Shown here piece after piece: positions 4,112 through 17,146 of a DNA stretch of 38,346 bases. Position 1 is the first letter of the stretch. Every line of letters starts with the position of its first letter. This DNA comes from a virus, in the IMG/VR virus record IMGVR_UViG_3300030104_005592, positions 1-38,346 of that record. The stretch is one strand, 5' to 3'. Both the position numbers and the translations under genes were made by a program. The notes under the pieces are model-generated. The model did no database searches. It saw only the letters and a list, made by a program, of their open reading frames with translations, and had not been told where the DNA came from.

Positions 4112-4782
4112 TGCAAACCTCCAATGCGCTTGGTCTTATCGTCTACTGCCAGCCCGAGGAACTCCTCCGTTTTTTCATGGTGGATGCGGACCACGCCTTG
4201 CTCACCCCCGCCCTGGTACACCAGCCGGGCCTTTTCCTTGTCGCCTATCAGTGCCGGCTGGTCCGTCGAACGACCACGCTTGAAGCCAGATTGCAGGCTG
4301 TTCTCGTGCTCGCTGGCGCCGATGAGCTTTCGAGGGAAGCTGTCGGGTGGTGTAGTGGTGAAACCTTGGTAGAGCTTCAGGAAGTTGTTCCGGAGGAACG
4401 GATATTCCTTGTTATCGGTCAGGGCAACGGTCTGCCAGCCGCCAAGCCTCTCGATTGCTGCGTGGATTTTCGGGTCATCGAAAACCACAGAGCGGTAGTT
4501 GCCCACGCAACGGATAGCGAAATCGACCTTGGCCCAAGCCTCCCCGCTGGCGGACTGGCTACTGCCCTGCAGCAACCGGACGATATCGGCAGGCTTGGGC
4601 GGGTACTGGCCCGTATCTGGGTTGGTGATGTGCCGAGATAGGGCGTGCTCAATGTCAGCCAACGAGAAGGCGATGAGCGACTGGAATACCATGTAAACCA
4701 CCCTGGGCTCGGGGCTCTTGCCATAGATCTCATGGGCCTGTGCCCACATATCGCCAAAGGCCTCCAGATCATTGGTGTTCAT
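4108..4782 (-). CDS. Replication protein in the lambda P position
   Basis: Protein of 224 residues. The N-terminus (LEAFGDMWAQAHEIYGKSP) and the segment ALSRHITNPDTGQYPPKPADIV resemble the DUF6475/P-like group of phage replication proteins, in which a replicative-helicase loader domain follows the O-like initiator. It overlaps the O-like gene by 14 bases. The expected role is delivery of host DnaB to the phage origin. Position is the strongest argument; I see no Walker motif, so it is not a DnaC-type ATPase. Confidence 0.65.
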   Translation of the reverse strand: MNTNDLEAFGDMWAQAHEIYGKSPEPRVVYMVFQSLIAFSLADIEHALSRHITNPDTGQYPPKPADIVRLLQGSSQSASGEAWAKVDFAIRCVGNYRSVVFDDPKIHAAIERLGGWQTVALTDNKEYPFLRNNFLKLYQGFTTTPPDSFPRKLIGASEHENSLQSGFKRGRSTDQPALIGDKEKARLVYQGGGEQGVVRIHHEKTEEFLGLAVDDKTKRIGGLH

Positions 4783-5740
4783 AGGTCACTCCTTGCTGGC
4801 TGTTCGAGCGCTGCTCGTGGATGCGGCGGAGCTCGGCGGCTCGATCGATACCTGCCTGTTGCGGGGCTTTCCGGCGCTCTGACCTCCGCTGCATGGCAAC
4901 CTGAGGCCACTTGTCGCGAAGCTTTTCGGGGGATTGGACGTGTGAAGCCCAGAATTTCTCGTGACGGATAGCCCAGTCCCACAGAATCCGGATGTGGCGG
5001 TGCTCCCGGCCATCCTGCTCTCGCATCAGCCGGATGGTGTTTGCCCAGCGGGAGAATTTCGGTTCTCGTGGCTTGTCCTCTCCCAGCTGATCGACCAGTG
5101 CGTCCCACATCCACACCGCAAGATCGAGATCGTCTTGTGTCCCCCAGAATCGGCCGTTCTCGATGGCGGCATCAGGCCTTGAGGGCTGGCTTTGCTCGTT
5201 GGGGTGATCTGGGTCGTCCTGCGCTGGGTGGTTGTCCGGCCGGTCAGGCCCGGACGTCTTTCCTGCCGTAGTCTCTGAGGTAGTCTCTGAAGTAATCTCT
5301 GTAATAGATTGGCGGTTTCCGCCCTCACAGTCTGGCGGGTTTGTGCATTCTTGAATGGCGCTTTCCGCCATACTGGTTGCACCATCTGTACATTCTTGAT
5401 TGGCGGATTCCGCCATTCTGGAGGACAGCGCTTTCAGGGCGGTTTCCAGAGCGTCAACGTTCACTCGGAAGTACAGCTTCGCCGGAACACCTTTCCTGAT
5501 CTCTTCCAGGAAGCCGGCCTTTTCCAACCGCTTGCGAGCGGTCTCCTGCTCCCGGCGTGTCATGCCGGTTTCGGCCTCCCAGTCGGACTGAGACTTATAG
5601 AACCAGCCGTCCTTGTTGGAGGTCCGGCCATGCCAGTAGATGCACTGGGAGAGCATCAAGGCACCAGTGATCCCGACACCCAGGTCGACGAAAGCCCTCT
5701 GGAAGGCGATAGGCCTGTCGAATAGTTCAATACCACTCAC
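4769..5740 (-). CDS. Replication initiator (lambda O-like), contains the origin
   Basis: Protein of 323 residues. Residues about 1-105 form a winged-helix DNA-binding domain (MLSQCIYWHGRTSNKDGWFY, then WEAETGMTRREQETARKRL). A low-complexity linker follows (about 110-200: repeated MAESA-QECT, then SETTSETT and a Pro/Asp/His-rich stretch), and the C-terminal domain (about 205-300) probably contacts the helicase loader. The repeats encoding the linker are the candidate iterons, as in lambda where ori lies inside gene O. It overlaps both neighbours by a few bases. Confidence 0.82.
   Translation of the reverse strand: MSGIELFDRPIAFQRAFVDLGVGITGALMLSQCIYWHGRTSNKDGWFYKSQSDWEAETGMTRREQETARKRLEKAGFLEEIRKGVPAKLYFRVNVDALETALKALSSRMAESANQECTDGATSMAESAIQECTNPPDCEGGNRQSITEITSETTSETTAGKTSGPDRPDNHPAQDDPDHPNEQSQPSRPDAAIENGRFWGTQDDLDLAVWMWDALVDQLGEDKPREPKFSRWANTIRLMREQDGREHRHIRILWDWAIRHEKFWASHVQSPEKLRDKWPQVAMQRRSERRKAPQQAGIDRAAELRRIHEQRSNSQQGVTYEHQ
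5268..5421. repeat. Candidate replication origin: iterons inside the O-like gene
   Basis: Three 12-bp tandem units (GTAGTCTCTGAG-type) run from 5268 to 5303. A palindrome ATTGGCGGTTTCCGCC follows at 5308-5323. Then come two 35-bp direct repeats at 5342-5376 and 5387-5421, 45 bp apart and identical at 30 of 35 positions, each holding a TGGCGnnTTCCGCCA palindrome. The layout of AT-containing short repeats beside palindromic iterons in the linker of an initiator gene matches lambda ori. Function is inferred from this analogy. Confidence 0.75.
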
Positions 5741-6477
5741 GCCACGTTCTCCTGGTCATCGAACAGGACGTGGCTGTAATGGCCATCCCAGTCCTTTCGC
5801 ATTTCAAGCCGACCCTGCTCATATTGGGCATAGAGCCACTTGGCTCCCTTCTGGGTGAGCACAACCTTCTCGCAGGGCCGATCGTCTCGGTTCAGATAGC
5901 GCCGCTCGGTGAAAAGCTTGTCCCGGTAGGCGGCCGCACTACGGTAGCCGTGGGGAGTCCGTAGTAGTCGCTTGCGCTCCACCAGGACAGGCTGCACTCG
6001 GTTCAGGTTGACGCCATTTAGCATTCGGCAGAATTCCACAGGCGTCAGGCCGGCCTTGAGGTTCTCGGCCAGGTCGTTGCAAACAGCGTTGAGGCGGTTG
6101 GTTTCGCCCTTGTAGTGGTCAACCTGGGAACTGAGGTCCTCGAGGGCGATCCGGGCTTCTTTGGTCAGGTTTCGAGCCCAGGAGGGCAGGGCAGCCTGCT
6201 CTTCCAGGTACTGCCAGCGGTCTACCACTGCAGCGGTGAACTCCGGAGAGAGTCGGGCAACCAGCACGAGAGAGTCCCGCTTGTTGAAGCGATACTCCTG
6301 GTAGATGTTGCCGCGGTGTTCGTAATCTGACCCCTCCAATGGAGAGGTTAAGATTTGATCAGCCGCCAGGCGTTCTGCCGACCGCTTAACATTGTCATGA
6401 CGGCTTCCGGTGAGATCCGCGATCTCACGGCTGCTCATCGTTGGGCTGCAGTTGTTCCTCAATACCAGATCAGTCAT
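5737..6477 (-). CDS. Rha-type regulator with ANT-like antirepressor C-terminus
   Basis: Protein of 246 residues. The N-terminal part resembles the phage Rha family (TMSSREIADLTGSRHDNVKR, then EYRFNKRDSLVLVARLSPEF, residues about 13-90). After a coiled segment the C-terminal part (LTPVEFCRMLNGVNLNRVQP through VVLTQKGAKWLYAQY, about 140-225) resembles the ANT/KilAC domain of phage antirepressors. It lies in the lytic leftward operon and may counter the CI-like repressor, which lacks an SOS-cleavable domain. That regulatory link is inference. Confidence 0.75.
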   Translation of the reverse strand: MTDLVLRNNCSPTMSSREIADLTGSRHDNVKRSAERLAADQILTSPLEGSDYEHRGNIYQEYRFNKRDSLVLVARLSPEFTAAVVDRWQYLEEQAALPSWARNLTKEARIALEDLSSQVDHYKGETNRLNAVCNDLAENLKAGLTPVEFCRMLNGVNLNRVQPVLVERKRLLRTPHGYRSAAAYRDKLFTERRYLNRDDRPCEKVVLTQKGAKWLYAQYEQGRLEMRKDWDGHYSHVLFDDQENVA

Positions 6478-6497
6478 AATCGAATCCTCTACTGATT

Positions 6498-6545
6498 ACC
6501 CGGCGAGGTGTTACCAGCACCGTTTGAGCCGGGTTTTCTTTTTTC
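6498..6545 (+). terminator. Plus-strand hairpin with T-tract opposing the leftward operon
   Basis: ACCCGGC (6498-6504) pairs with GCCGGGT (6528-6534), with an inner GGTG/CACC stem, and is followed on the plus strand by TTTTCTTTTTT. It lies between two minus-strand genes (RusA and the Rha-like gene). As drawn it would stop rightward, antisense transcription; on the minus strand there is no T-tract after the hairpin. Confidence 0.6.
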
Positions 6546-6954
6546 AGGCCTCTGGCCCTTTCCCCGTAATCACCACCCGAATCTCTCCATCCGGCCGGAC
6601 GATTTCGTCGCGTTTCAGGAATGGATGTGTCCGGAAGTGGCAGTCATCGATCTTCAGTGCGTCCGCCAGTCCATCGCGGCCTGACTTGAACGCGGCAATA
6701 ATGTTGTCGTCGTCCCGGGGTCGCCGATTGGGTGGATGGAAGCCCAGGAACACATGAATTTCGCCGCCAGCTTCGACCAGCTCCCTCAGTGGAGTGAGAT
6801 CCCAATTGCCAGCCTGGATGGCCTCCAGTGAAATCATCTTGCAGGTGTAGCGATAGACTTCCGCAGCCCGGGCCCTCTTCGCCCAATGCCCTCGGGAGTT
6901 CGGACTCAGGGCCTTGTGCGGCCAGGGAAGTTTGATTTCGAGTTTCTCTGGCAT
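6544..6954 (-). CDS. RusA-family Holliday junction resolvase
   Basis: Protein of 136 residues. The family features are LSPNSRGHWAKRARA near the N-terminus and the acidic catalytic region RPRDDDNIIAAFKSGRDGLADALKIDD, whose Asp residues bind Mg2+. RusA cleaves Holliday junctions 5' of CC dinucleotides; in phages it resolves branched replication and recombination intermediates before packaging. It overlaps the end of the upstream small gene by about 49 bases. ATG 6954 is preceded by CGGAGCAGG. Confidence 0.9.
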   Translation of the reverse strand: MPEKLEIKLPWPHKALSPNSRGHWAKRARAAEVYRYTCKMISLEAIQAGNWDLTPLRELVEAGGEIHVFLGFHPPNRRPRDDDNIIAAFKSGRDGLADALKIDDCHFRTHPFLKRDEIVRPDGEIRVVITGKGPEA

Positions 6955-7106
6955 TGCCTGCTCCGACTGCGTAATTCAAAAACTGTCTTAACGTGACATG
7001 TCACGTTTTCTCGTAGTGACTCCGGGCATTCCGCCAGCCTGGCCTTTCTCTCTTCCCGATCGGCGCCGGCGGCAACGTAGGCGTTCCATTCACCAAGTGA
7101 TTGCAT
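6906..7106 (-). CDS. Small hypothetical protein ahead of rusA
   Basis: ATG at 7106 has a clear ribosome site (GAGGTGG ending 3 bases before it); 66 residues, MQSLGEWNAYVAAGADREER at the N-terminus, very basic at the end (SKSNFPGRTRP). The last 49 bases overlap RusA in another frame, so the C-terminus may be constrained by that gene. It lies 21 bases after the tRNA. No family recognised. Confidence 0.6.
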   Translation of the reverse strand: MQSLGEWNAYVAAGADREERKARLAECPESLRENVTCHVKTVFELRSRSRQCQRNSKSNFPGRTRP

Positions 7107-7127
7107 GGTCCACCTCAAAGCGTTCTC

Positions 7128-7204
7128 TGGTAGCAGGCGAGGGAGTCGAACCCTCCGATATCCGGGTTATGAGCCCAGCGAGACACCGTTTCTCCATGCC
7201 TGCA
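7128..7204 (-). tRNA. tRNA-Met(CAT), initiator-like (tRNA-fMet features)
   Basis: A 77-nt cloverleaf with encoded CCA. Acceptor arms TGCAGGC/GCCTGCT pair at six positions and leave a T-T mismatch at 1-72. The D stem is GAGA/TCTC (A11:U24), the anticodon stem CTGGG/CCCGG has three consecutive G-C pairs around loop CTCATAA, and the T arm is GAGGG-TTCGACT-CCCTC. The unpaired 1-72, A11:U24 and the three G-C pairs are the known marks of bacterial initiator tRNAs. Odd: three bases (ATG) instead of two between acceptor and D stems. It lies inside the leftward early transcript. Confidence 0.88.
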
Positions 7205-7677
7205 TAACTGGCGGGTTTTCCGGTATCACCGCTCTGGCATTTGTTGATCCGGTGCCACCCGGGACCCCCTACCGGTGGGAGCCACAAGTTCGCAATGTCA
7301 TTGCGGTTGATGCGTCGGCCGGGAACCTCCCAACCCCTTACACATCCGAGGAGGGCTCTACCTGACGCGGCAGACTGAGGACCTGCCAGGTCATCCTTGG
7401 TCGAGGGAGCAGAGCCCTCCCGGATGCGGCCTGTCTTTCCAGGCTGTCAGCGCGATCAACTGGGGCGGTGGTGGGTTACCTTTGACTCGCGCTGCTGGCG
7501 TTCTATCGCCGGGACCCTGTCCCCGGCTGCAATGTCGGCACCTCGGCTTTCGCCTGGCCAGCTTTACCGTCTGCTTCTGATAGCGCTGCAGCTCGCGCTT
7601 GCTTCAAACCCTGTACAGATATCCACCCGTAGTCAGGCGGGTAATCCGCCAGCTCCGGAGTGGTTTAATGGAAACCA
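7205..7677 (-). other. Gap between cro and tRNA: structured leader, no firm gene
   Basis: These 473 bases lie in the leftward transcript. I see hairpins: GCCGGGAC/GTCCCCGGC (7508-7527, one bulge), GGGAG/CTCCC around 7403-7420, and a GC-rich stem around 7255-7285. On the minus strand an open stretch from about 7652 to 7499 could encode some 50 residues (ELADYPPDYGWISV near its start) but has no ATG or GTG start, and a 23-codon frame starts at the TGATG of the cro stop. I do not call either as a gene. A cII-like gene is not evident. Confidence 0.4.
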
Positions 7678-8034
7678 TCAGGCGGCACTCTCCGGGCCGT
7701 GATCGACAGGAAAGCCGGACCCTCGGCGCTCGTGATCGCGTCGTTCTTGCTCTCTGCGTTCAGCGGCCCGGCGCTTAGCACTACGGCGGTCTAAAAAGTC
7801 AGCAGCCCGCTCAAGTGGAATGCCGTCCGTTTGGTTCGGGTAAATGTCCGGGCGGAGTTCGTGGGGGGTGACCTGCCAGTCTGTGGCTTCGCAGACGGCG
7901 AGAACTTTTTCAGCCGATACTTGCCGGTGCCCTGAAAGCCATTGGTAAATCAGGCCCTGGGTAACCTTGAGGTGCCCAGCGAGCTGTCTTTGAGTAACCC
8001 GATTCCGGGCCATGTATGCGCGTAGTGTCTTCAT
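7678..8034 (-). CDS. Cro-like repressor
   Basis: Protein of 118 residues. The helix-turn-helix is at about 13-45 (TQRQLAGHLKVTQGLIYQW, then LSGHRQVSAEKVLAVCEA), of the Cro/YdaS type. The C-terminal third is highly charged and Arg-rich (KRRAAERREQERRDHERR), unlike lambda Cro and longer than its 66 aa. It is the first gene of the leftward lytic operon, divergent from cI and behind a promoter that carries the repressor operators. The assignment as Cro rather than CI rests on being first in the operon that leads to replication genes. Confidence 0.8.
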   Translation of the reverse strand: MKTLRAYMARNRVTQRQLAGHLKVTQGLIYQWLSGHRQVSAEKVLAVCEATDWQVTPHELRPDIYPNQTDGIPLERAADFLDRRSAKRRAAERREQERRDHERRGSGFPVDHGPESAA

Positions 8035-8042
8035 GACCTGAG

Positions 8043-8071
8043 ATATTAGTGATGCTATTACCTTGGGTCAA
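8043..8071 (-). promoter_or_regulatory. pR-like promoter for the leftward operon
   Basis: Read on the minus strand: -35 TTGACC (8071-8066), a 17-bp spacer, and -10 TAATAT (8048-8043). This is close to the sigma-70 consensus. The upstream operator covers the edge of the -35 box and the downstream operator covers the -10, so repressor binding would block RNA polymerase. The cro ATG follows at 8034. Confidence 0.85.
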
Positions 8072-8109
8072 TAGTATTGCTATTTGTGCGAGGTAATAGT
8101 TTTGCTATT
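8045..8109. promoter_or_regulatory. Three CI/Cro operators between cro and cI
   Basis: Three copies of a 15-bp pseudo-palindrome, half-site AATAGYA: 8045-8059 (ATTAGTGATGCTATT, weakest), 8070-8084 (AATAGTATTGCTATT) and 8095-8109 (AATAGTTTTGCTATT). Centres are spaced exactly 25 bp, about 2.4 helical turns. The first two overlap the pR-like promoter; the third lies just upstream of the cI start and could control its own transcription. Two more copies with the same 25-bp spacing lie at 11054-11093. No convincing pRM -10/-35 pair is visible. Confidence 0.85.
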
Positions 8110-8119
8110 CAATGCCGTA

Positions 8120-8659
8120 ATGGAGACAAACCGAACCTTATCCGAAGAACAAATTGCTGATGCCCGTAGGCTTAAAAGCCTGTGGGAGAGGGAGTTTAAG
8201 GGCAAAATATCTCAAGAAGAGGCTGCGCACCTCTGCGGATGGAGGACTCAGGGAGCTTTCAATCAATACTTAAACGCAAAAATACCTCTTGGACTTCCTG
8301 CCCTGCTGAAAATATCTGAGGCGCTGGGCGTGAGCCCGGAAGAAATTTCCCCTCGGTTGGCAGCTAAGCTTCCGAAGAAGGGCTCTGTCGACTTCAACCT
8401 CTCCGGCCAATCCTACATACCTGGCTCTGATAATCCGCCAGCCGCGGCATCCTCGGAAATTGATCTCCTCCTGGCAAAAGCCACTCCACGTTCACGGCAG
8501 CAGTTATTGAGGATTGCGGAGGCGGCGGCAGACGGTCGCCTCAGCGAATCTGACATCAAGATGTTGAGTGATATCGCCAAACGACTGGAAAAAGGAAGCA
8601 CCAATCACAGTGACGACTACCCAAACCTCAAGCCAGACACGGCTGATCCGGATTCTTGA
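8120..8659 (+). CDS. CI-like repressor without autocleavage domain
   Basis: ATG at 8120 is chosen because earlier starts would lie inside the operators; 179 residues. The XRE-type helix-turn-helix spans about 28-70 (ISQEEAAHLCGWRTQGAFNQ, then LPALLKISEALGVSPEEISP). The C-terminal part (about 105-179) has a helical stretch (TPRSRQQLLRIAEAAADGRL) but no LexA/S24 peptidase core: no Ala-Gly cleavage site and no Ser/Lys dyad context. It should maintain lysogeny by binding the AATAGYA operators. Prophage induction would need another route, such as an antirepressor. Confidence 0.82.
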   Translation: METNRTLSEEQIADARRLKSLWEREFKGKISQEEAAHLCGWRTQGAFNQYLNAKIPLGLPALLKISEALGVSPEEISPRLAAKLPKKGSVDFNLSGQSYIPGSDNPPAAASSEIDLLLAKATPRSRQQLLRIAEAAADGRLSESDIKMLSDIAKRLEKGSTNHSDDYPNLKPDTADPDS

Positions 8660-9479
8660 TCCTTCAGCGTATCGGGGAATGCTTCACTGGGTTGATCCAG
8701 AAGATGGGCATATCTCCGACGTCCATGTGGCGCGCTATGCAATAGATTTAGAAACCTCGGTGGAGGCCTACTCCAAGATTTACCCATGGGAAGACGGTCG
8801 TAACCGTGGGATGGTTAATGAGATCACCGGGTACCTGGTCTGTCATGCTCTGGGAATTCCCCAGCCGGCCCGGGCCTTTGTTGCTTACGTGCCCTTGCGG
8901 GAAATCTGCACGCCGGACTCTTCCCCTATGATCCGCCAGCTGGCCGAGCAAAGAGCTTATTACCCGGCATTCTGTACCCAGAGGCTGGACGGAAAGAGCG
9001 CCGCCTATCGGCTTCCACGGGTCGCGCTTCCTGGTCTCATAGAAGACGTGAAAGCATGGGACAAGCTGCCCACTACAATGGCCGTCGATGACCAGATTGC
9101 GAATGTCGACAGGCATCTCAATAACTTGATCAGGCTGGGTAGCAAGTCCTTTGCTGTGATTGATAACGGAATTCTGGCGGCTGCTCCCCGGGAAGGTGTG
9201 CATCACTGGACGGTTGATCGCCTGGACGCACTGGCGCTGTTCCGGAACAGACTCTGTGAGCACGTTTTTAACCAGGATCCACCAAACAAGGTGGTCAGTG
9301 CCACCCTTGGGGAAGCCCAAAACTGCGCGCCCGCCGTAGATTCAGTGATCGACGAGCTGGAGTTCTGGTGGTCTCAACTACTATCCGGCGAAGATTACGA
9401 AAAATTCAAAGCGTTCATTCTGGAAAGGACGTCTCAGATTGAAGTGATCCTGAGACGACGATACAACCGGCTGCTATAA
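8610..9479 (+). CDS. HipA-like kinase in the repressor operon
   Basis: GTG 8610 is taken as start because AAGGAAG precedes it and the conserved N-terminus (IRILDPSAYRG) begins soon after; 289 residues. It overlaps the end of cI by 50 bases, so it is probably translated with it in lysogens. Kinase features: GMVNEITGYLVCHALGIPQP in the N-lobe, the catalytic DQIANVDRHLNNLI (Asp about residue 167, Asn of HLNN) and a DFG-like AVIDNG. This is the short HipA-like family (HipA_2 type), not full-length HipA with its HipB partner. HipA kinases phosphorylate targets such as tRNA synthetases; the target here is unknown. Confidence 0.82.
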   Translation: MTTTQTSSQTRLIRILDPSAYRGMLHWVDPEDGHISDVHVARYAIDLETSVEAYSKIYPWEDGRNRGMVNEITGYLVCHALGIPQPARAFVAYVPLREICTPDSSPMIRQLAEQRAYYPAFCTQRLDGKSAAYRLPRVALPGLIEDVKAWDKLPTTMAVDDQIANVDRHLNNLIRLGSKSFAVIDNGILAAAPREGVHHWTVDRLDALALFRNRLCEHVFNQDPPNKVVSATLGEAQNCAPAVDSVIDELEFWWSQLLSGEDYEKFKAFILERTSQIEVILRRRYNRLL

Positions 9480-9487
9480 TTGGCATT

Positions 9488-10387
9488 ATGATGCTCGATT
9501 CCCTTATTACTCATGCAGACACCGCCGGCGCACCCAATGTAGTGGGTCGTTATCGGCTGCTGCGCGTTTGTCCGGACCCGGTGGCGGACGAGTGGTTCAA
9601 CGTGGGAATCTATTTTGAGGCCGCGGACGGGAGCCGAGACTATCGGTTGCTCGAAAACATGGAGGCTTTTAAATGCCTCTATGGCGCCCATGGCGTCGGC
9701 AACCTGAACAACCTGCTTTCAGTGGTCGCTGATGCGGCTAAAGCGGGCAGGCTGAATGAGCTTGGCCCTCACATCCGAGCCGGGCAAGAGCATTACGCGG
9801 CTGGCGAATCCACAGACGAGATTCTGTCCCAGATGTTCGATACGTTTGTGACCCTGAGCAGAAGACAAGTTGAAGAAGCCGAACCGAAAGAACGCACCGA
9901 AGGTCTCAACACAGTCGATCTTAGGAAAATAGTGCTGGGAGAGGTCAAGTCGAAGTACCGCGGCCTGTATAACCGCTCATTTCATGACAAGCCAATCTCG
10001 CTGGCGGATCCAGTCAACGATGAGAAGCGGGAATACGACCTGCCGATATTCCGTCAACCAAAACTCGGAAACGACACAACCAGGTTTGCCTCAATCATCT
10101 CGGCCTTCGTGAAAACCGATATCAACCGGGCGTATCACCTGGACCGTGGTGCTCTGACCCTGTTGAACGCCCGGGACGTCCTGAAGCAGAAGGGCCGGTC
10201 AGAAGGTGCTTTCTTTATCCTGCGGCCCCACGAAGGCGCTCCCGGTTTCGATGAGCAAGTGATGCGAAAGATCGACGACGATATCGACACTGCGATTTTT
10301 CATTTCCGGCATGACAAACACTTCCACTTTGAAGTGTTTGATGACCCCAGAATTCTCACCGAATACGCAATTGACTACGCGAGCTGA
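9488..10387 (+). CDS. DUF3037 family protein, partner of the HipA-like kinase
   Basis: Protein of 299 residues starting 8 bases after the kinase stop. The N-terminal half shows the DUF3037 signature (GRYRLLRVCPDPVADEWFNV, then GIYFEAADG), known mainly as a neighbour of HipA-like kinases. The C-terminal half (about 150-299) is of mixed alpha/beta character and has no motif I recognise. Together with cI and the kinase it forms a three-gene rightward operon in the place of lambda cI-rexA-rexB. It may be the antitoxin, sensor or substrate of the kinase; this is inference. Confidence 0.78.
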   Translation: MMLDSLITHADTAGAPNVVGRYRLLRVCPDPVADEWFNVGIYFEAADGSRDYRLLENMEAFKCLYGAHGVGNLNNLLSVVADAAKAGRLNELGPHIRAGQEHYAAGESTDEILSQMFDTFVTLSRRQVEEAEPKERTEGLNTVDLRKIVLGEVKSKYRGLYNRSFHDKPISLADPVNDEKREYDLPIFRQPKLGNDTTRFASIISAFVKTDINRAYHLDRGALTLLNARDVLKQKGRSEGAFFILRPHEGAPGFDEQVMRKIDDDIDTAIFHFRHDKHFHFEVFDDPRILTEYAIDYAS

Positions 10388-10399
10388 CTGACAGCTTGT

Positions 10400-10789
10400 T
10401 CACGCGCCGAGTTCACGCTGCGCTGACATCGCCAGGAAAGCAGACCGACTCATATGCCGGCTTCTGGCCTCGTCGTCGATCCTGCGCAGCAATCCTTCCG
10501 GCAGGCTGACGTTCAGCCGAACTGATTTAGTTTTCAGCTTGCCGGTGTCGATATCCACCATCATCCAGATCCCGCCCTGGTAATCGGGATTGGCCATCAG
10601 CTTGTCCAGCGGGGTGGGTGAGGGCACCACCATGTCCTCATCCTCGCAGTACAGCTCTACCGCCTCCTGGATGTTGCCCGCCAGCTCGTCCCAGCCGTCC
10701 GCCGCAGAGAAGCAGCCGGGGAAGTCCGGCACTTCCGCGCCATGGGCGTGCTTGTCATCACCTGTATGTACATAAACCGGGAACAGCAT
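10400..10789 (-). CDS. hicB: HicB-type antitoxin
   Basis: Start ATG 10789 with a strong ribosome site (TGGAGGTAATTATG), overlapping region with the hicA stop only 2 bases upstream; 129 residues. The N-terminal partly degraded RNase-H-like HicB fold (FPVYVHTGDDKHAHGAEVPD, then FPGCFSAADGWDEL) is followed by a C-terminal ribbon-helix-helix DNA-binding domain (KSVRLNVSLPEGLLRRIDDE). It should neutralise HicA and repress the hicAB promoter. Convergent with the DUF3037 gene, 12 bases apart. Confidence 0.9.
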   Translation of the reverse strand: MLFPVYVHTGDDKHAHGAEVPDFPGCFSAADGWDELAGNIQEAVELYCEDEDMVVPSPTPLDKLMANPDYQGGIWMMVDIDTGKLKTKSVRLNVSLPEGLLRRIDDEARSRHMSRSAFLAMSAQRELGA

Positions 10790-10791
10790 AA

Positions 10792-10980
10792 TTACCTCCA
10801 GTCCCATCCTGCTTGCCTGTAAATGCTGCGCAGTGTGCCCAGCGGCATATCCTTTCGCGGGTGTGGCACTACCACGTGCCCGGGCTTATCCGGGTGTTTG
10901 AACTTCTCGTGGTCGCCCTTGCCGCCCACTTTCACCCAGCCTTCCGCCTTCAATCGTTTGATAATGTCTGCGCTTTTCAT
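10792..10980 (-). CDS. hicA: HicA-type mRNA interferase toxin
   Basis: Protein of 62 residues with the dsRNA-binding-like HicA fold: MKSADIIKRLKAEGWVKVGG, then KGDHEKFKHPDKPGHVVVPH, where the His in GDHEKF is the expected catalytic residue. HicA degrades mRNA and blocks growth unless bound by HicB. Order hicA-hicB is standard. The start has no Shine-Dalgarno sequence, and the -10 region and a palindrome sit within 20 bases of the ATG, so the mRNA leader must be very short. Confidence 0.9.
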   Translation of the reverse strand: MKSADIIKRLKAEGWVKVGGKGDHEKFKHPDKPGHVVVPHPRKDMPLGTLRSIYRQAGWDWR

Positions 10981-10982
10981 AG

Positions 10983-10998
10983 TGTGTATGTTTACACA
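10983..10998. promoter_or_regulatory. Palindromic operator candidate for hicAB
   Basis: TGTGTATGTTTACACA has perfect 6-bp arms around a 4-bp centre and lies 3 bases upstream of the hicA ATG. Its position over a likely -10 (TAAACA on the minus strand, with TTGCCA 16 bp upstream as -35) suggests autoregulation by the HicB ribbon-helix-helix domain. Motif is visible; protein assignment is inferred. Confidence 0.6.
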
Positions 10999-11053
10999 AC
11001 TTCATGAGGCTGGCAATTTGCTGGTCTCCGCAAGATGGTATTAGTTAAAAAAT

Positions 11054-11095
11054 AATAGCAATACTATTGACTGCAAATAATAGCGTTGCTATTGT
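11054..11095 (+). promoter_or_regulatory. pL-like promoter with two CI operators
   Basis: Rightward promoter: -35 TTGACT (11067-11072), 17-bp spacer, -10 TATTGT (11090-11095). Operators AATAGCAATACTATT (11054-11068) and AATAGCGTTGCTATT (11079-11093) overlap the -35 and -10. Their centres are 25 bp apart, the same geometry as at cro/cI, and the first operator plus -35 reads almost the same as the pR-like promoter (AATAGCAATACTATTGAC in both). It should be silent in lysogens and fire on induction, driving the operon that ends with int. Confidence 0.88.
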
Positions 11096-11127
11096 TCACC
11101 CATAACGTTGATCAGGGAGACAACAAA

Positions 11128-11517
11128 ATGGGCCGCAGACAGAAACCAACCTATCCCCGAATGGAAGTTGAGCTGGCGGATACATCACTTCTACCGCCGC
11201 GCCGTGCGGAGGTCGTAATGCTGGCGGCCCGAGGAATGAGCACCAAGGCCATTGCCCGCCAGCTGGGCATTTCTCCAGCCACGGTTGAGTGGCATCTGGA
11301 CGAAGCCAAGGACCAGTTCCACGCGCTGGATCGGGTGGATCTTGTCTCCCAGGGCTGGATGCAGGGGCTATTCCGGGCCCGGATGCTTGCCTGGATGCTT
11401 GTCGCTTTCTCATCGCTGCCTGCAATGCGCAGCAGGCCCACACCAATCAACGGTACCCGTCCGCCAGCTGTGCGCAGCGTGATTGGCCGTACTGCGATCC
11501 GCGAATTCCGTGCTTAA
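11128..11517 (+). CDS. LuxR-type HTH protein, first gene of the rightward early operon
   Basis: ATG 11128 is preceded by AGGGAGA; 129 residues. Residues about 20-75 form a GerE/LuxR-type four-helix HTH (LPPRRAEVVMLAARGMSTKA, then IARQLGISPATVEWHLDEAK). There is no N-terminal sensor domain. The C-terminal third has no recognisable motif. It is immediately downstream of the CI-controlled promoter, the place of lambda N. It may be a transcription regulator of phage or host genes; no target is visible. Confidence 0.75.
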   Translation: MGRRQKPTYPRMEVELADTSLLPPRRAEVVMLAARGMSTKAIARQLGISPATVEWHLDEAKDQFHALDRVDLVSQGWMQGLFRARMLAWMLVAFSSLPAMRSRPTPINGTRPPAVRSVIGRTAIREFRA

Positions 11518-11530
11518 CCAGGAGATCACC

Positions 11531-11728
11531 ATGGCAACTCTGACTATCGAACTTCCGGAAAAGGTTACCCAGGGCCAAATGATGGAGGCGCTGGCCTCCC
11601 TGGGCTGCGAGCTTCGGCTCTCCAGTGATGGCAGGAACTACAAAGCCGTGCCTAGAGAACAGGGCAACGTGGTCCGGATGCCGGCGAGGGTCCGGGAGAT
11701 CCGCCAGCCGGGGCCCGGTGTCGCGTGA
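11531..11728 (+). CDS. Small hypothetical protein
   Basis: ATG 11531 follows GGAGATCACC; 65 residues. The first half looks like a small alpha/beta fold (MATLTIELPEKVTQGQMMEA, then LASLGCELRLSSDGRNY) and the tail is basic. The stop overlaps the GTG of the next gene (GTGA). No family recognised. The gene is part of the CI-controlled early operon. Confidence 0.65.
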   Translation: MATLTIELPEKVTQGQMMEALASLGCELRLSSDGRNYKAVPREQGNVVRMPARVREIRQPGPGVA

Positions 11729-11973
11729 ACATGGACGGGGTGGCTCCAGAGCCGTTCGCAGTGGCTGCTGCCGCGATCGCGATCTGGGTGCTGGCCCTGA
11801 TTATCGAAACGACCAAAGCAAGAGGGAAAAAGGATGTTGATTCTTACAAGGCGCACCGGAGAGACGATCGTCATCGAGACCCCGAGCGGGGAAGTGGTGG
11901 AGGTCACCGTTCTGGGGAACAACGGCCCGCAAATTCGCATGGGCGTTACCGCGCCAAAGCACACAAGCATTGA
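11725..11973 (+). CDS. Small single-pass membrane protein overlapping csrA
   Basis: Start GTG 11725 (GTGA overlap) or ATG 11731; about 82 residues. A transmembrane segment lies at about 12-30 ([20 protein letters not shown]). The C-terminal half is hydrophilic, rich in His, Arg and Gly, and overlaps csrA in another frame for about 140 bases, so only the first 36 codons are under independent selection. Probably a short membrane protein with an incidental tail. Function unknown. Confidence 0.5.
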
Positions 11974-12022
11974 CCGTGAAGAAATCTACAAGCGGAAGAA
12001 GGCGGAGGCCAGTCATGGCTGA
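11834..12022 (+). CDS. csrA: Phage-encoded CsrA/RsmA-type RNA-binding regulator
   Basis: Protein of 62 residues, full length for the family. It starts [20 protein letters not shown] and continues [20 protein letters not shown] and then DREEIYKRK. The RNA-contacting residues of CsrA are kept: L4, R6, R7 near the start and the Arg of REEIY near the C-terminus. CsrA dimers bind GGA motifs in hairpins at ribosome sites and repress or stabilise host mRNAs. In the early operon it could redirect host carbon, motility or biofilm programmes on induction. The family call is strong; the target is unknown. Confidence 0.93.
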
Positions 12023-12344
12023 GTGCTATGCCCACGAGGTGTTCGGGAATCTGTCCTGCTTTGCAGGAACCCCGGACCAGGTGAAATCGGCACTGGCTAA
12101 CCAGGTAGGTGACGACATGGTCGACTGGGGCAGGGTGGTACCGCTCCAGGTGGAAACGGCCAAGTCCCGACACGCTGACGAGCTCTACCAGGTGCTCCGG
12201 GATCTCACCTCAATGGCAAAGCTGGGTGTTCCGATTTCATGCATCAACACATACCTGGCAGCGATCCGGAACGCGGAGCAGCTGCTGGAGAAAGTCGACA
12301 ACGAATCCACGGAGGATTCCATCCATGAAAAACAAACTGTCTGA
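12015..12344 (+). CDS. Hypothetical early protein
   Basis: ATG 12015 overlaps the csrA stop by 8 bases; 109 residues, beginning [20 protein letters not shown]. It is mostly helical by eye ([38 protein letters not shown]). No motif recognised. Its end overlaps the next gene by 20 bases. The tight coupling to csrA could mean joint function but is also the rule in this operon. Confidence 0.65.
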
Positions 12345-12546
12345 TTTGAACGATCACCTCTTCGCCCAGCTTGAGCGCCTCAATGACGAGGATCTGAAGG
12401 GGCAGTTACTCGAGGAAGAGATCGAACGTAGCAAGGCGATCACTGGCGTGAGCAAAGAAGTGGTATCGAACGCCAGGCTGGTTCTGGATGCTGAGCGCTA
12501 TAAGCGTGAGCACGGCATGACTACTGGCCCGAAGATGTTGGAGTGA
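12325..12546 (+). CDS. Small helical hypothetical protein
   Basis: ATG 12325 follows GGAGGATTCC; 73 residues, acidic and helical ([20 protein letters not shown], then EEEIERSKAITGVSKEVV). This pattern is common in small phage proteins found in Pseudomonas-type prophages, without known function. The ribosome site lies inside the end of the preceding gene. Confidence 0.7.
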   Translation: MKNKLSDLNDHLFAQLERLNDEDLKGQLLEEEIERSKAITGVSKEVVSNARLVLDAERYKREHGMTTGPKMLE

Positions 12547-12549
12547 GTC

Positions 12550-13170
12550 ATGGCAACCTGGAATGCGCAACGGGATGACTGGCTTCGATCGCTGTATCCG
12601 GACACTCCGAACCGAACGATCGCGAAGATGCTCAATTGCAGTTACCTGGCAGTGAAAAACAGGGCGACGGTTCTTGGACTCAAAAAGGATCCAGCATACA
12701 TGGCCAGTAAGCCGGGGTGCTTCAAGCCAGGGCAAGAAAGCTGGAACAAGGGCCTCAGCTATCAACCAGGTGGCCGCTGCTCAGAGAACCAGTTCAAGCC
12801 CGGGCAAAAGCCGCAAACGACAGTGCCGGTTGGTACCGAGTCGGTCGACAAGGATGGCTACCTGAAGCGGAAGGTTCGTGATGATGCGCCACCAGGTATG
12901 AGCCGGAAGAACTGGAAGTTTGTGCACGTCCTGAAGTGGGAGGAGTACCACGGCCGTCCGGTACCGCCAAAGCACGTTGTGCGCTTGAAGGATGGCGATA
13001 AGCGGAACTTTTCTCCAGAGAACCTGGCGCTGGTAAGCATGGCTGAGAACGCAATCCTGAATAAGTTCTTCGCCATGGAAAACCCGCCAGAGGGGAGTTT
13101 CGACGTCCTCCACAACCTGGCCAAGATCAAGTTGGCAGCGAACAAACGGAAACGGGAGCTGACATGTTGA
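12550..13170 (+). CDS. HNH endonuclease with HTH N-terminus (homing type)
   Basis: Protein of 206 residues. The N-terminus has an HTH-like stretch (TPNRTIAKMLNCSYLAVKNR, about 18-40) and repeated CFKPGQ/QFKPGQ elements typical of modular homing nucleases. The HNH_3-type core follows: NWKFVHVLKWEEYHGRPVPP, then HVVRLKDGDKRNFSPENLAL, with His and the NLAL element at about 130-165. Probably a free-standing homing nuclease that has settled in the operon. GGAG precedes the start. Confidence 0.8.
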   Translation: MATWNAQRDDWLRSLYPDTPNRTIAKMLNCSYLAVKNRATVLGLKKDPAYMASKPGCFKPGQESWNKGLSYQPGGRCSENQFKPGQKPQTTVPVGTESVDKDGYLKRKVRDDAPPGMSRKNWKFVHVLKWEEYHGRPVPPKHVVRLKDGDKRNFSPENLALVSMAENAILNKFFAMENPPEGSFDVLHNLAKIKLAANKRKRELTC

Positions 13171-13550
13171 TTGCAAGTTACGACCAATGGCGCGAAGCGA
13201 AGAAGAAGGTACTCGAGGAAGAAAACCCGGAGATCGATTGTGAAGAGTGCGGGGGTCTTGGGGAAATCTACGAGCGTTGTCACTGCTGCGGTGGCGAAAA
13301 AGAAGAGGAGTGCGATCTCTGTGATGGTCGCGGGACCATTCGCTATCTCGATTCTTCAAAGCCACGGCCAGGCAATGATCTGGTGGGTCAAAGAGTTTAC
13401 TTCCAGGAAGTGATCGCAGATCTCAAGACCTGGTGCACCTACACCAAGCAGGACTTTCTCCAGGTGGCCGGCGGGTTCGTTAGCGAATTCAGAAAGCAAC
13501 ACGGAATCAGGGGTCGTCACGGAATCACCAGGTATAAAGGGCGGGCCTAA
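13164..13550 (+). CDS. DnaJ-type zinc-finger protein
   Basis: Protein of 128 residues. Three Cys-rich knuckles (DCEECGGLGEI, CHCCGG, CDLCDGRGTI; residues about 25-60) resemble the DnaJ CxxCxGxG zinc modules but without a J domain. The C-terminal half is basic and helical (DLKTWCTYTKQDFLQVAGGF). It overlaps the HNH gene by 7 bases. It may act as an adaptor or bind RNA or DNA; function unknown. A shorter protein with a similar zinc module lies at 3435-3746. Confidence 0.75.
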   Translation: MLIASYDQWREAKKKVLEEENPEIDCEECGGLGEIYERCHCCGGEKEEECDLCDGRGTIRYLDSSKPRPGNDLVGQRVYFQEVIADLKTWCTYTKQDFLQVAGGFVSEFRKQHGIRGRHGITRYKGRA

Positions 13551-13810
13551 TGGACGGAAATACAGCCAGAACCATCCTCAGCCTGAACGATCAGCGGGAC
13601 AAGGCAGAAGCCAGCAAACGGGAAGCGCTCCTGGAGCTGGCCGAGATGAAGCATGAGCTGCAGATTCTCAGGCACATGAAGCGAGAGATCTTGGTCTGCC
13701 TGCTCGATCGACGGCTGCCGCACTACCAGCGGGACGGATCATCACCCAGCTGCCACCACACAGTCAGCCGAATAGCGAGGATTGTACGCAGTGCACACGC
13801 AGGTAACTGA
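13550..13810 (+). CDS. Small coiled-coil hypothetical protein
   Basis: ATG overlaps the preceding stop (TAATGG); 86 residues. Residues about 8-55 form a strong coiled coil (LNDQRDKAEASKREALLELA, then EMKHELQILRHMKREI). The C-terminus is Ser/His/Arg-rich. No family recognised. It overlaps the following gene by about 20 bases. Confidence 0.65.
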   Translation: MDGNTARTILSLNDQRDKAEASKREALLELAEMKHELQILRHMKREILVCLLDRRLPHYQRDGSSPSCHHTVSRIARIVRSAHAGN

Positions 13811-13982
13811 CCTGAGCCACGAGGATCGCGCTGAGGCGATTATCGAGCTCATCGAGAACACCGGCATGGCCTATGCCCATTCAAGCGGCTGTGTGGTGCT
13901 GAAGGACGGAACATGGCTCCAGCCTGAGCAGTGGCAAGTGTGGGTGGAGCATCTGAAGAATGAGGAGAGGGAAGCATGCTGA
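13791..13982 (+). CDS. Small hypothetical protein
   Basis: GTG 13791 is preferred over TTG 13782 because AGCGAGG lies at a proper distance from it; 63 residues. The protein (VTDLSHEDRAEAIIELIENT, then SGCVVLKDGTWLQPEQW) is acidic and compact. It overlaps the next gene by 7 bases. No family recognised. Confidence 0.6.
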   Translation: MHTQVTDLSHEDRAEAIIELIENTGMAYAHSSGCVVLKDGTWLQPEQWQVWVEHLKNEEREAC

Positions 13983-14203
13983 CGGAAGCACAGAAGAAAA
14001 GGGTGGCCATGATTATTGGCTCTTCCGCCCATGATTGCGAGGTGTCCATGGTGTTGAACGCCGGAAGCAGCCCGGTTCGCACACTTACTGAAGTTGCCGA
14101 GACGCTGCACTACATGAACGCCAACGGCATCGAGAAGATCAGCCATAGAAAGGCGCTGATGAAGGCGGGCCGGAAGGCGCTGAATGTGTTGGGGGAGATG
14201 TAA
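13976..14203 (+). CDS. Small hypothetical protein
   Basis: Protein of 75 residues (MLTEAQKKRVAMIIGSSAHD, then VRTLTEVAETLHYMNANGIE). The second half looks like a small helical domain ending KAGRKALNVLGEM. Its ATG overlaps the end of the previous gene and the next gene starts directly after its stop. No family recognised. Confidence 0.6.
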   Translation: MLTEAQKKRVAMIIGSSAHDCEVSMVLNAGSSPVRTLTEVAETLHYMNANGIEKISHRKALMKAGRKALNVLGEM

Positions 14204-14509
14204 ATGGCCATGACACCAACCGAACGTAAACGCCGCCAGCGTGAGCGGAACAAGTTCCTGGACATGAAGCTCTTCACCATGGAGCTGGCTGCCAACGAAC
14301 GGGCAGCGATCGAGGAGGCGGCCCGGCTTCGGGAGTTCGACGACCAGACCGAGTACATCCTCGCACTGGTTTACAAAGATCGTGACATGTCACGAAAGGA
14401 AAACGTGTGCAGCTATCCCGACTGTAACTGCCCGTTCGATATGGGGCCAGATGGAAAATGCCTGGTTGGGAAGCCGAGGAAGGGTGAGGTTGAGCATGAA
14501 TCGAATTGA
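14204..14509 (+). CDS. Small basic protein with Cys cluster
   Basis: Protein of 101 residues. Very basic N-terminus (PTERKRRQRERNKFLDMKLF) with a helical middle that resembles a ribbon-helix-helix or phage replication-regulator type protein (MELAANERAAIEEAARLREF). A C-terminal Cys cluster (CSYPDCNCPFD, then GKCLVGKP) may bind zinc. Likely binds nucleic acid; unproven. Confidence 0.65.
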   Translation: MAMTPTERKRRQRERNKFLDMKLFTMELAANERAAIEEAARLREFDDQTEYILALVYKDRDMSRKENVCSYPDCNCPFDMGPDGKCLVGKPRKGEVEHESN

Positions 14510-14984
14510 TCGGGTAATTGAGATTGAAGACCTTATTGCTCGCGGGGAAATGACCGCCGCGCAGGTTTTCACTCAGATGAGGCAGCTGGTGATTACAGAA
14601 ACACCTGGGGCGAGATGGCGGGAGGCTGGCGAGCCGGATCCCCACGGCGACAAATTTAATCAGGAGCGGGCCCAGCTGTGCATGGGTCACTTTACTGATG
14701 ACGAATTGGCCAACGAAGTTTTCTTGAGGCCCACCATAGGGAACCTGACGGCCGCAAAGGAGCGGATTCGCTGGCTGTCTCGGAGACTGGAAGCGTCCCG
14801 CTCAGGGCAGGGCGCCGAGGAAAAGCTGCCGCACGCCGGCCTAGAAGTAATGGGCAACATCCAGATTAACGAGGGTGGCGATCTGCAAAATTATTACCGG
14901 GCCCTGGTGCTGACTTTCAACACCAACGAAGACGTCCGCCGGGCCATTGCAGCAGAGCAATGCACCTTCGGGTTTAAGGAATAG
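14496..14984 (+). CDS. Hypothetical early protein
   Basis: Start ATG 14496 sits in an overlap of 14 bases and follows GGTTGAG; 162 residues. Contents: an acidic helical N-terminus (RIDRVIEIEDLIARGEMTAA), a middle with FTDDELANEVFLRPTIGNLT, and a C-terminus NTNEDVRRAIAAEQCTF. No motif recognised. The earlier in-frame Met codons lie in the preceding gene and have no ribosome site. Confidence 0.65.
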   Translation: MNRIDRVIEIEDLIARGEMTAAQVFTQMRQLVITETPGARWREAGEPDPHGDKFNQERAQLCMGHFTDDELANEVFLRPTIGNLTAAKERIRWLSRRLEASRSGQGAEEKLPHAGLEVMGNIQINEGGDLQNYYRALVLTFNTNEDVRRAIAAEQCTFGFKE

Positions 14985-14987
14985 GCC

Positions 14988-15263
14988 ATGAGCGAGCCAC
15001 AACTGCAGATGCCCCGGGCCTGTGATAGCTGCGAACACTATAAGCCGGTCGGATGGGACGAGGACAAGCACTGTCCGTTTAAGGGGCAGTCCGCCAGCTC
15101 GCCCAAGCCTACACGCACACCCTTCGGCCGGTGCGATCTTCACGGCACCGAGGTGTTCGCCACCGAGATATGCAATAGCCACGAGCCAGAGCCTTTCGTT
15201 CACCTGGTGGACGTGACCAACAGGCCTGAGCCGAGAACTGCGATACAGGAGAGATTGCTGTGA
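14988..15263 (+). CDS. Small Cys-rich, probably zinc-binding protein
   Basis: Protein of 91 residues with Cys/His pattern CDSCEHYKPVGWDEDKHC, then GRCDLHG and ICNSHEP, enough for one or two zinc sites. The stop overlaps the GTG of the DHH gene. Similar short Cys-rich proteins follow at 16919. Role unknown. Confidence 0.68.
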   Translation: MSEPQLQMPRACDSCEHYKPVGWDEDKHCPFKGQSASSPKPTRTPFGRCDLHGTEVFATEICNSHEPEPFVHLVDVTNRPEPRTAIQERLL

Positions 15264-16111
15264 ACAAATTGATCAAACCCACGATGTGCATTTATCACGC
15301 GAACTGTGCCGATGGTTTTGGTGCTGCCCTGGCTGTATGGCTGCGCTTTGCAGATAACCGTCCTGAGTTTGTGCCAGCCTCCTATGGTGAAACGCCGCCG
15401 AACTGTTCGGGGCATGACGTTCTCCTGGTGGATTTCTCTTACAAGCTTCCCGTACTCGAGCAGATCCTTGCTCAGGCAAAGAGCGTGACGATTCTGGACC
15501 ACCACAAAACCGCCGAAGCGGACATCCAGCCCTTGCTCGATGACGGCCGTGTTAACGGTGAGTTCGACATGGGCCGGTCGGGCGCGGCTATGGCATGGGA
15601 CTGGTGCTTCCCAGATGAGGACCGCCCTCGGCTGATTGAATACATCCAGGACAGGGACCTCTGGCAATTCAATCTGGAGGGCACCCGGGAAATCTCCGCA
15701 GCGCTTTTTTCATACGACCAAGACTTCGAGGTGTGGAAAAACATACTCACCGCCCTCGAGGACGATGAAGGCCAGGAGTTCATCCTCGGTATGGGCCGAA
15801 CCCTGCGGCGGAAGCACAACAAAGACCTGAATGACCTCCTGAAAGCCACGAAGCGACGGATGCTGATCTGCGGGTACTCAGTACCAGTCGCCAACGTGCC
15901 ATATATCTTCGCGTCGGATGCCGGGAACATCATGGCTGAGGGTGAGCTTTTCTCCGCCAGCTACTTCGATACTCCTGAGGGTCGCAAGTTCAGCCTCCGC
16001 TCGAAGGAAGGCGGGATGGATGTAAGTGAAATCGCAAAGCGATTCGGTGGTGGCGGCCATGCCCGGGCGGCTGGCTTTCAGGTTCCGATCGGATGGGAAG
16101 GGTGTGACTGA
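15260..16111 (+). CDS. DHH-DHHA1 family phosphoesterase
   Basis: GTG start overlapping the previous stop (GTGA); 283 residues. Motifs in order: YHANCADGFGAALA (motif I), LLVDFS (II), TILDHHKTAEA (III, the DHH triad), IEYIQDRDLW (IV) and the C-terminal DHHA1 signature RFGGGGHARAAGF. All metal ligands are present, so it should be active with Mn2+. Relatives hydrolyse pAp, short oligonucleotides (NrnA) or cyclic dinucleotides. It may recycle nanoRNA or remove a nucleotide signal used in host defence; substrate cannot be read from sequence. Confidence 0.88.
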   Translation: MNKLIKPTMCIYHANCADGFGAALAVWLRFADNRPEFVPASYGETPPNCSGHDVLLVDFSYKLPVLEQILAQAKSVTILDHHKTAEADIQPLLDDGRVNGEFDMGRSGAAMAWDWCFPDEDRPRLIEYIQDRDLWQFNLEGTREISAALFSYDQDFEVWKNILTALEDDEGQEFILGMGRTLRRKHNKDLNDLLKATKRRMLICGYSVPVANVPYIFASDAGNIMAEGELFSASYFDTPEGRKFSLRSKEGGMDVSEIAKRFGGGGHARAAGFQVPIGWEGCD

Positions 16112-16560
16112 TGGGACTGCCATACGAAAACGCCAGCAGCGGTGACAAGGCCCTCGGTGAGATCCAGAAACTACTACGCGGGTTCGGGTGCCAGAAGTTC
16201 GGCAGCATGGTGGACGACCAGGAGCAGAGCCTGACGGTCCAGTTCCAATACAGGGGCAAGATGGTCAGTGTTCGGGCCAGCTTCGCCGGATATGCAGCGG
16301 CCTGGCTGCGGGAGCACCCCCACACCAGTCGAATGCACAAAACGAAGCAGGAGCACGAACGCCAGGCGTACGACAAAGCCAGCGTTGCTGTGTACTCAAT
16401 TCTCCGGGACTGGATCAAGGGGCAGGTGACGGCCATCGAAACCGGGATTCTCTCGTTCGAGGGCGCTTTCCTTGGTCAGATGATGCTCGAGCACGGCGAG
16501 ACGGTTCTGGATTACGCGCAGAGGCAGAAGCTTTTGCCGGAGCCGGGAGGTCAGGAATGA
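16111..16560 (+). CDS. Hypothetical early protein
   Basis: Start overlaps the DHH stop by one base; 149 residues. Two parts: about 1-70 alpha/beta (GDKALGEIQKLLRGFGCQKF, then VQFQYRGKMVSVRASFAGYA) and a helical C-terminus (YSILRDWIKGQVTAIETGIL, then FLGQMMLEHGETVLDYAQ). I recall similar sequences as conserved unknowns in proteobacterial prophages, but no function is known to me. Confidence 0.7.
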   Translation: MGLPYENASSGDKALGEIQKLLRGFGCQKFGSMVDDQEQSLTVQFQYRGKMVSVRASFAGYAAAWLREHPHTSRMHKTKQEHERQAYDKASVAVYSILRDWIKGQVTAIETGILSFEGAFLGQMMLEHGETVLDYAQRQKLLPEPGGQE

Positions 16561-16922
16561 GCACTAAATATAGAGATCCCAAACACGTTCCATCTGAAAC
16601 GCTTATCGCTCGACTTAACGAGCTGGCCGATGCAATAACCAGAGGCGGTGAATCGAAGGACGAAGAACTCACAATGCGCGTGCCTGCAGAGTGCGATCGA
16701 GACGCCGACCTAGTAATTTCAGAAGCCGCCCGAAGGCTGGAGAAGGCAGAAGCGAGAGTGAAAGACTTATCGAAATTCATCCGTGCAGGTGATCGTGTTT
16801 GTTGCGAACTGGAATCATGGCTTGCAACCGAGCATGACAAGGAGAGCCAGCGGGCAATAAACATCTGGAAGAAGCTTCGCCGGCAGGCCGAAGAGGCTGA
16901 GAGCCCAGGAGGTGAGCAGTGA
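16557..16922 (+). CDS. Hypothetical coiled-coil protein
   Basis: ATG 16557 overlaps the previous stop as ATGA; 121 residues. Helical and charged (SETLIARLNELADAITRGGE; SEAARRLEKAEARVKDLSKF). GGGAGG lies just upstream. Similar to the short DUF551/EaA-like filler proteins of lambdoid early operons only in general character; no family assigned. Confidence 0.62.
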   Translation: MSTKYRDPKHVPSETLIARLNELADAITRGGESKDEELTMRVPAECDRDADLVISEAARRLEKAEARVKDLSKFIRAGDRVCCELESWLATEHDKESQRAINIWKKLRRQAEEAESPGGEQ

Positions 16923-17146
16923 GCCAGGAAGAAATTATGCGGGACGGCTATCAGCCGAACGTTAACTGCATTCATTTCTACCGCGGGCGATGTGCCCACC
17001 CATCGGCGAAGCGATTAATCCTGCCGAATAAGCTGCGTGTCCTGACTGGCAGCTCGGACGATCGATGCAGCGGGTGTCGCTACCAGGTAAAGCATGAACG
17101 ACCAAGTCCGCCGTCGAACCCGCCAAGACCGCCAGGAGGTGAATAG
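16919..17146 (+). CDS. Small Cys-rich hypothetical protein
   Basis: GTG start overlapping the previous stop (GTGA); 75 residues. A likely zinc site is formed by CIHFYRGRCAHP and DDRCSGCRY. The Pro-rich tail (PSPPSNPPRPPGGE) overlaps the ribosome site of the next gene. No function known. Confidence 0.65.
   Translation: MSQEEIMRDGYQPNVNCIHFYRGRCAHPSAKRLILPNKLRVLTGSSDDRCSGCRYQVKHERPSPPSNPPRPPGGE

Follow-up and report, generated by a model that had tools for sequence, protein, structure and literature searches.

The window analysed here, a whole stretch of 38,346 bases from a virus record, contains terminase, portal, major head, tape measure, tail fibre and integrase genes and therefore appears to belong to a temperate siphovirus. 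Positions 4602-20612 are 100% identical over 16,011 bases to a separate contig (L120) binned in a gammaproteobacterial genome of 2.1 Mb; both ends of the window, searched in that genome, gave no match. Its immunity region is a mirrored lambda layout, in which cro and the repressor gene diverge around one operator cluster and a second cluster lies at the other early promoter. From left to right it comprises cro, three operators, the repressor, a kinase gene, a DUF3037 gene, HicBA, two operators and the early genes, with the kinase-DUF3037 pair at the place of rexA and rexB and HicBA as an addition. The Cro-like helix-turn-helix (HTH) regulator (7678-8034, minus strand; Pfam YdaS_toxin 2.1e-14, PHROG transcriptional repressor 5.7e-23) is adjoined by a tRNA-Met gene (7128-7204, minus strand), and farther left lies a Rha/Ant-like antirepressor (5737-6477, minus strand; phrog_63 1.1e-34), which may provide a means of induction where the repressor lacks an S24 domain. 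Between the DUF3037 gene and the second operator cluster sits a complete HicBA pair (10400-10980, minus strand), consisting of the HicB antitoxin (10400-10807; Pfam HicB_lk_antitox 4.3e-42) and the HicA toxin (10792-10980; Pfam HicA_toxin 6.6e-22). The first gene past the second operator and promoter encodes a LuxR/sigma-4-like HTH protein (11128-11517, plus strand; Pfam GerE 3.8e-10), followed by a 62-amino-acid open reading frame (ORF) resembling the carbon storage regulator CsrA (11834-12022, plus strand), which has a comparable ORF in the related phage L001 (8485-8712), and by an early-gene DHH phosphoesterase (15260-16111, plus strand; phrog_4771 2.4e-99).

The five operator sites are 15-bp near-palindromes spaced 25 bp apart within each cluster, three in the right cluster (8045-8109; sites at 8045, 8070 and 8095) and two in the left cluster (11054-11093; sites at 11054 and 11079). 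The operator pattern has 12 matches in the window, where shuffles expect 1.24, and 10 of these fall at the five sites. The right cluster overlaps a leftward promoter-like site (8071-8043) and the left cluster a rightward one (11067-11095), promoter-like sites being no more numerous in the immunity region than expected by chance. A scan with the operator pattern found zero copies from the repressor through the end of the DUF3037 gene, which fits a single maintenance transcript, and the repressor, kinase and DUF3037 genes are likely to be co-expressed on one message, as the original prediction had supposed. The gene order and the rex-like position between the repressor and the second operator cluster, both given in that prediction, also hold, with five sites and promoter-like sites now located; its picture of the layout stands but was incomplete, lacking the type of repressor, the HicBA insertion and a related phage with a decayed pair.

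The repressor, in the cI position, probably starts at the ATG at 8123 and extends to 8659 on the plus strand; HTH_3 is the sole Pfam domain detected (6.7e-6), peptidase S24 was not found, and the protein ends in the tail TPRSRQQLLRIAEAAADGRLSESDIKMLSDIAKRLE. The kinase gene (8610-9479, plus strand) overlaps the repressor gene by 50 bases, its GTG start is preceded by an AAGGAA motif, and the DUF3037 gene (9488-10387, plus strand) begins 8 bases past the kinase gene, directly downstream as in HipAD, so that the coordinates, overlap and gap proposed earlier are right. An extended -10 sequence, TGCTATAAT, lies at the kinase stop codon (9471-9479), 8 bases before the DUF3037 ATG, and is kept in the remnant of the pair in L001; it could be a promoter of the DUF3037 gene's own, or chance. 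A clear ribosome site was not seen at that ATG.

HipAD, also described as DS-6 and as PADLOC PDC-M66, combines a HipA_2 kinase with a DUF3037 protein and confers phage defence (PMC12548924, PMC13092281). The 289-amino-acid window kinase matches phrog_11186 (3.5e-40), a family that carries no known function, and yielded no Pfam match, the gathering cut-off of HipA_2 (PF20613) not being reached. Its NVDRHLNN and AVIDNG motifs are intact, in agreement with the original prediction, and it keeps all nine positions that are invariant across 43 relatives (K56, E71, D160, D167, R168, N172, I184, D185 and W200). These include the catalytic Lys and Asp and the Mg-binding Asp characteristic of HipAD and PDC-M66 (K56, D167, N172 and D185 invariant, n = 43). 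Pfam HipA_2 matches 22 of the 43 aligned relatives (E < 0.01) and PADLOC PDC-M66A matches 10 (best E 2.6e-5). The AlphaFold2 model of the kinase (pLDDT 92.6, pTM 0.92) has as its closest solved structures in Foldseek PI4KII-alpha and HipS-HipT complexes, at modest TM-scores of 0.42-0.49, and the closest bacterial folds are those of Legionella HipT; as modelled, the kinase is predicted to adopt the HipA/HipT and PI4-kinase fold. HipA itself was not recovered by sequence in the PDB.

The DUF3037-like protein (299 amino acids) matches phrog_27972 (6.2e-21), likewise a family that carries no known function, and is homologous by profile to members of Pfam DUF3037, although its own Pfam match (E = 0.068) falls short of the cut-off. 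DUF3037 matches 16 of 41 aligned relatives and PADLOC PDC-M66B matches 18 (best E 1.1e-6), whereas the PADLOC models, including PDC-M66A and PDC-M66B, gave no match to the window proteins. Its AlphaFold2 model (pLDDT 91.7) is a mixed alpha/beta, soluble-looking protein whose domain packing is uncertain (pTM 0.65), and fold searches returned no convincing match in the PDB (best E 1.5e-3, TM 0.2) and otherwise unnamed viral proteins alone. Because both window proteins miss the Pfam cut-offs, the names HipA-like and DUF3037, used in the original prediction, rest on relatives and structure. By homology, the window pair appears to be a divergent relative of HipAD, too divergent for the HipAD models, and by analogy the DUF3037-like protein is probably the antitoxin.

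The order repressor, kinase, DUF3037 recurs in Moraxella phage Mcat22, Pseudomonas phage D14P and a prophage-like Acinetobacter record; Moraxella phage Mcat18 also has the pair, and the pair is found on small plasmids (3.5 kb) without a phage. Viral contigs were surveyed with an aligned kinase profile, since single-protein scans gave almost nothing; six aligned DUF3037 proteins varied too much to serve as a scanning profile. The survey recovered 76 loci, which form 53 kinase clusters at 90% identity. The original prediction had called for a search for such pairs behind repressors, and 38 of the 53 viral kinase clusters proved to lie in a repressor operon, 29 of them directly behind the repressor and 9 farther away, with the repressor at most 2.6 kb upstream on the same strand and one to four small genes between. 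For the other 15 clusters no repressor was seen in the 2.6 kb examined upstream, a distance limited by contig ends in at least three (L016, L047 and L070). The linkage of kinase and repressor is beyond chance (38/53), with clusters that are akin to one another and counts that do not equal independent events. A DUF3037 relative lies directly behind 99 of 100 kinase ORFs in the examined loci, a redundant set, the exception being L092, where an intact kinase has no detectable DUF3037 behind it. Divergence among the kinases closely mirrors that among the DUF3037 proteins (Mantel r = 0.94), as expected of a cognate pair. At two loci, inspection by eye shows further likely defence genes next to the pair: in L054 these are an AAA ATPase and an HNH protein, in L073 a C5 methylase and a dGTPase-like gene.

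The spacing between repressor and kinase differs sharply with repressor type. Repressors were classified by reading their sequences, with a Pfam check that detected S24 in five members (L005, L009, L019, L049 and L056) and not in four short ones; Pfam S24 was also detected in the repressor of L001. Where the repressor lacks S24, the kinase ORF overlaps or abuts it in 25 of 26 loci (strict overlap in 23), whereas none of the 15 loci with an S24 repressor does so, the gap there ranging from 34 bp to >2 kb (Fisher p = 2.5e-10); ORFs were taken from the first start codon (in the window, GTG 8610), which biases towards overlap equally in both repressor groups.

Many of the short repressors also end alike. 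The tail consensus [AT][ST]PRSxxxLxxIAxAAxxGRLTEDDLxLLxxIAxRF is present in 15 of 23 short repressors of the kinase-based survey as well as in the window's own, and the tail-bearing repressors have DNA-binding domains unrelated to one another. Among 21 tail loci, mean identity is 53% for the tail, a value inflated by the choice of these loci by tail, 27% for the kinase, 24% for DUF3037 and 20% for the HTH part. Tail divergence tracks kinase divergence (r = 0.39, p = 0.0002), a correlation not seen for the HTH part (r = 0.11, p = 0.075). When the tail by itself served as the search pattern, 18 of 19 loci had a kinase neighbour, the remaining locus being an actinobacterial false match, and in a wider profile search every new match above 60 bits had the kinase-DUF3037 pair. 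We caution against the interpretation that the tail is an exclusive signature of the kinase, which is ruled out by its occurrence without a kinase in a conserved family of Pseudomonas regulators (L145-L156, 44-57 bits), in L144, L157 and L160, and in weaker Halomonadaceae matches. In L144 the tail-type repressor is followed by a DUF262-like gene in the kinase's place. These sequence comparisons suggest that the tail is a general small domain enriched at kinase loci, perhaps serving oligomerisation, and a docking role is unproven because the kinase-free Pseudomonas regulators have it too.

Flanking genes of the window recur in phage L001, which has an S24 repressor and lacks the kinase. It keeps the last nine kinase codons and the DUF3037 gene up to residue 126 (83% identity), and therefore appears once to have had the pair in this position and to have lost the kinase. 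This apparent order of loss, with the kinase gone and part of DUF3037 kept, is what a toxin-antitoxin pair would permit. L001 bears a BrnTA-like pair (6837-7449, minus strand) where the window has HicBA, so that this slot looks like a toxin-antitoxin hotspot.

We consider it the likeliest explanation, with a probability of roughly 0.6, that the pair is a prophage-borne toxin-antitoxin system of the HipAD type, made from the repressor operon in lysogens and acting in abortive defence, because HipAD is a working phage defence and because a kinase made from the cI transcript of phage 933W aborts infection by a foreign phage. Both precedents favour the original prediction's proposal of a lysogenic defence acting through the kinase. 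In HipAD, deletion of the kinase abolishes defence, and in one of two studies deletion of DUF3037 is toxic; in the other, a catalytic mutation of DS-6A removes protection (PMC12548924, PMC13092281). The PDC-M66 models, which match relatives of both window proteins (10/43 for the kinase, 18/41 for DUF3037), thus represent a system of demonstrated defence. Under the HipAD-type reading, one maintenance transcript would yield repressor, kinase and DUF3037 during prophage dormancy, and the kinase would be bound and silenced by DUF3037. An infecting second phage would disturb the host, or DUF3037 itself, and free the kinase, which would then phosphorylate a target in the host or the phage, perhaps one involved in translation as in the case of HipA, stopping the infection and saving the lysogen population. 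The link to the repressor transcript would mean that the module is made as long as the host matters to the prophage, and is off once Cro takes over. Evidence against the defence reading is that the window proteins miss both the Pfam and the PADLOC models and that 15 of the 53 clusters have no repressor in the 2.6 kb examined; the intact kinase of L092 without a detectable DUF3037 argues against a strict toxin-antitoxin reading.

Exclusion genes on the PRM transcript have precedents in Rex, 434 hex and 933W stk (PMC3564112). Like lambda RexAB, and like RexABpp of Pseudomonas putida, which is proposed to exclude other phages (PMC12894663), the window pair consists of two genes after the repressor and before the second operator cluster for which exclusion is proposed, but RexAB are a DNA-binding sensor and a membrane channel, not a kinase and a soluble-looking mixed alpha/beta protein. 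The 933W Stk kinase is made from the cI transcript and aborts HK97 infection (PMC3564112), much as the window kinase lies behind a repressor, but it is a eukaryotic-like tyrosine kinase, and the parts of the source available to us describe no DUF3037 partner (PMC3564112). The 434 hex exclusion gene overlaps the repressor gene on the PRM transcript (PMC3564112), whereas Hex is not a kinase and inhibits RecA-driven repressor cleavage. With HipBA and HipBST the window shares an HTH gene overlapping or adjoining a gene for a HipA-fold kinase; it differs in that separate phage operators belong to its HTH protein, whose C-terminus is also different, in that HipS and the HipA N-domain are absent, and in that a DUF3037 gene follows the kinase. 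With HipAD the window pair shares gene order, catalytic residues and the models matched by relatives (HipA_2, DUF3037 and PDC-M66A/B), but it overlaps and follows a phage repressor inside an immunity region, the placement of E. coli HipAD in its prophages lying outside this comparison.

The toxin-antitoxin anatomy, the occurrence of the pair on 3.5 kb plasmids and the adjoining HicBA, another toxin-antitoxin pair, would also suit an addiction module that kills cured cells and keeps the prophage in its lineage without a role in defence. We consider this quite improbable because HipAD relatives give measurable phage defence (PMC12548924, PMC13092281), because a chromosomally integrated phage profits less from addiction than a plasmid does, and because placement on the repressor transcript is the position of an exclusion gene. 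That the two genes have no function and merely occupy a slot prone to recombination is extremely unlikely: the slot is indeed variable, L001 having other genes, a DUF3037 remnant and BrnTA instead of HicBA, but in the window neither ORF is truncated, every invariant residue is retained, and a separate assembly contig carries the genes in identical form.

Two further interpretations concern the repressor itself. One holds that it is a third, HipB-like member of the system, which engages the kinase, alone or in complex with DUF3037, through its C-terminal part, so that the immunity state directly gates the toxin. An HTH gene overlapping a HipA-like kinase gene is the layout of hipBA, and the confinement of overlap or abutment to S24-less loci (25/26 against 0/15), the tail common to repressors with unrelated HTH domains (53% against 20% identity), the kinase neighbours found from the tail alone and the covariation of tail and kinase all speak for it. 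We nevertheless regard it as unlikely, because the same tail is borne by a kinase-free Pseudomonas regulator family and several other loci, the antitoxin role is already filled by DUF3037 in HipAD, and deletion of an HTH gene in the Sda1 operon left defence unchanged (PMC12548924); the tail may do no more than mediate dimerisation and be passed along with the overlapping genes, and its high identity stems in part from choosing loci by tail. The other holds that the kinase is an induction switch for its own phage, phosphorylating the S24-less repressor or Cro in place of RecA-driven autocleavage, in keeping with the missing S24 domain of the window repressor, with the S24-type repressor of the close relative L001, which lost the pair, and with the limitation of overlap to S24-less repressors. 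It is very improbable given that in 15 clusters an S24 repressor lies next to the kinase-DUF3037 pair or no more than 2.6 kb from it, which rules out that the kinase substitutes for autocleavage in every case, that the pair also occurs on small plasmids without a phage, and that the window's Rha/Ant-like antirepressor could serve induction. A three-part system in S24-less prophages, in which either the tail contacts the kinase-DUF3037 pair or induction is governed by the kinase and not by RecA-driven cleavage, is a tentative idea that we consider unlikely; if the tail contact were real, one protein with an exchangeable DNA-binding domain would set both immunity and the arming of a kinase defence.

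Defence by HipAD-type kinase and DUF3037 proteins is already known, as is its presence in prophages: the discovery of HipAD is credited to work on E. coli prophages that protect against temperate phages (Brenes and Laub 2025, cited as ref. 35 in PMC13092281), and the original prediction that no function of the pair in a prophage was known is not supported on the same basis. Three things seem undescribed, in that no account of them was found in the literature searched, few subscription papers among it: the divergent branch itself, the residence of the pair in the repressor operon of many prophages unrelated to one another, and the rule of overlap with S24-less repressors. These patterns mean that the rex position in many unrelated prophages is a home for pairs of a HipA-type kinase and a DUF3037 protein, including a divergent branch overlooked by current defence-finding models, and the strict split in overlap between S24-less and S24 repressors makes it testable whether the repressor is part of the toxin-antitoxin unit and how such prophages induce.
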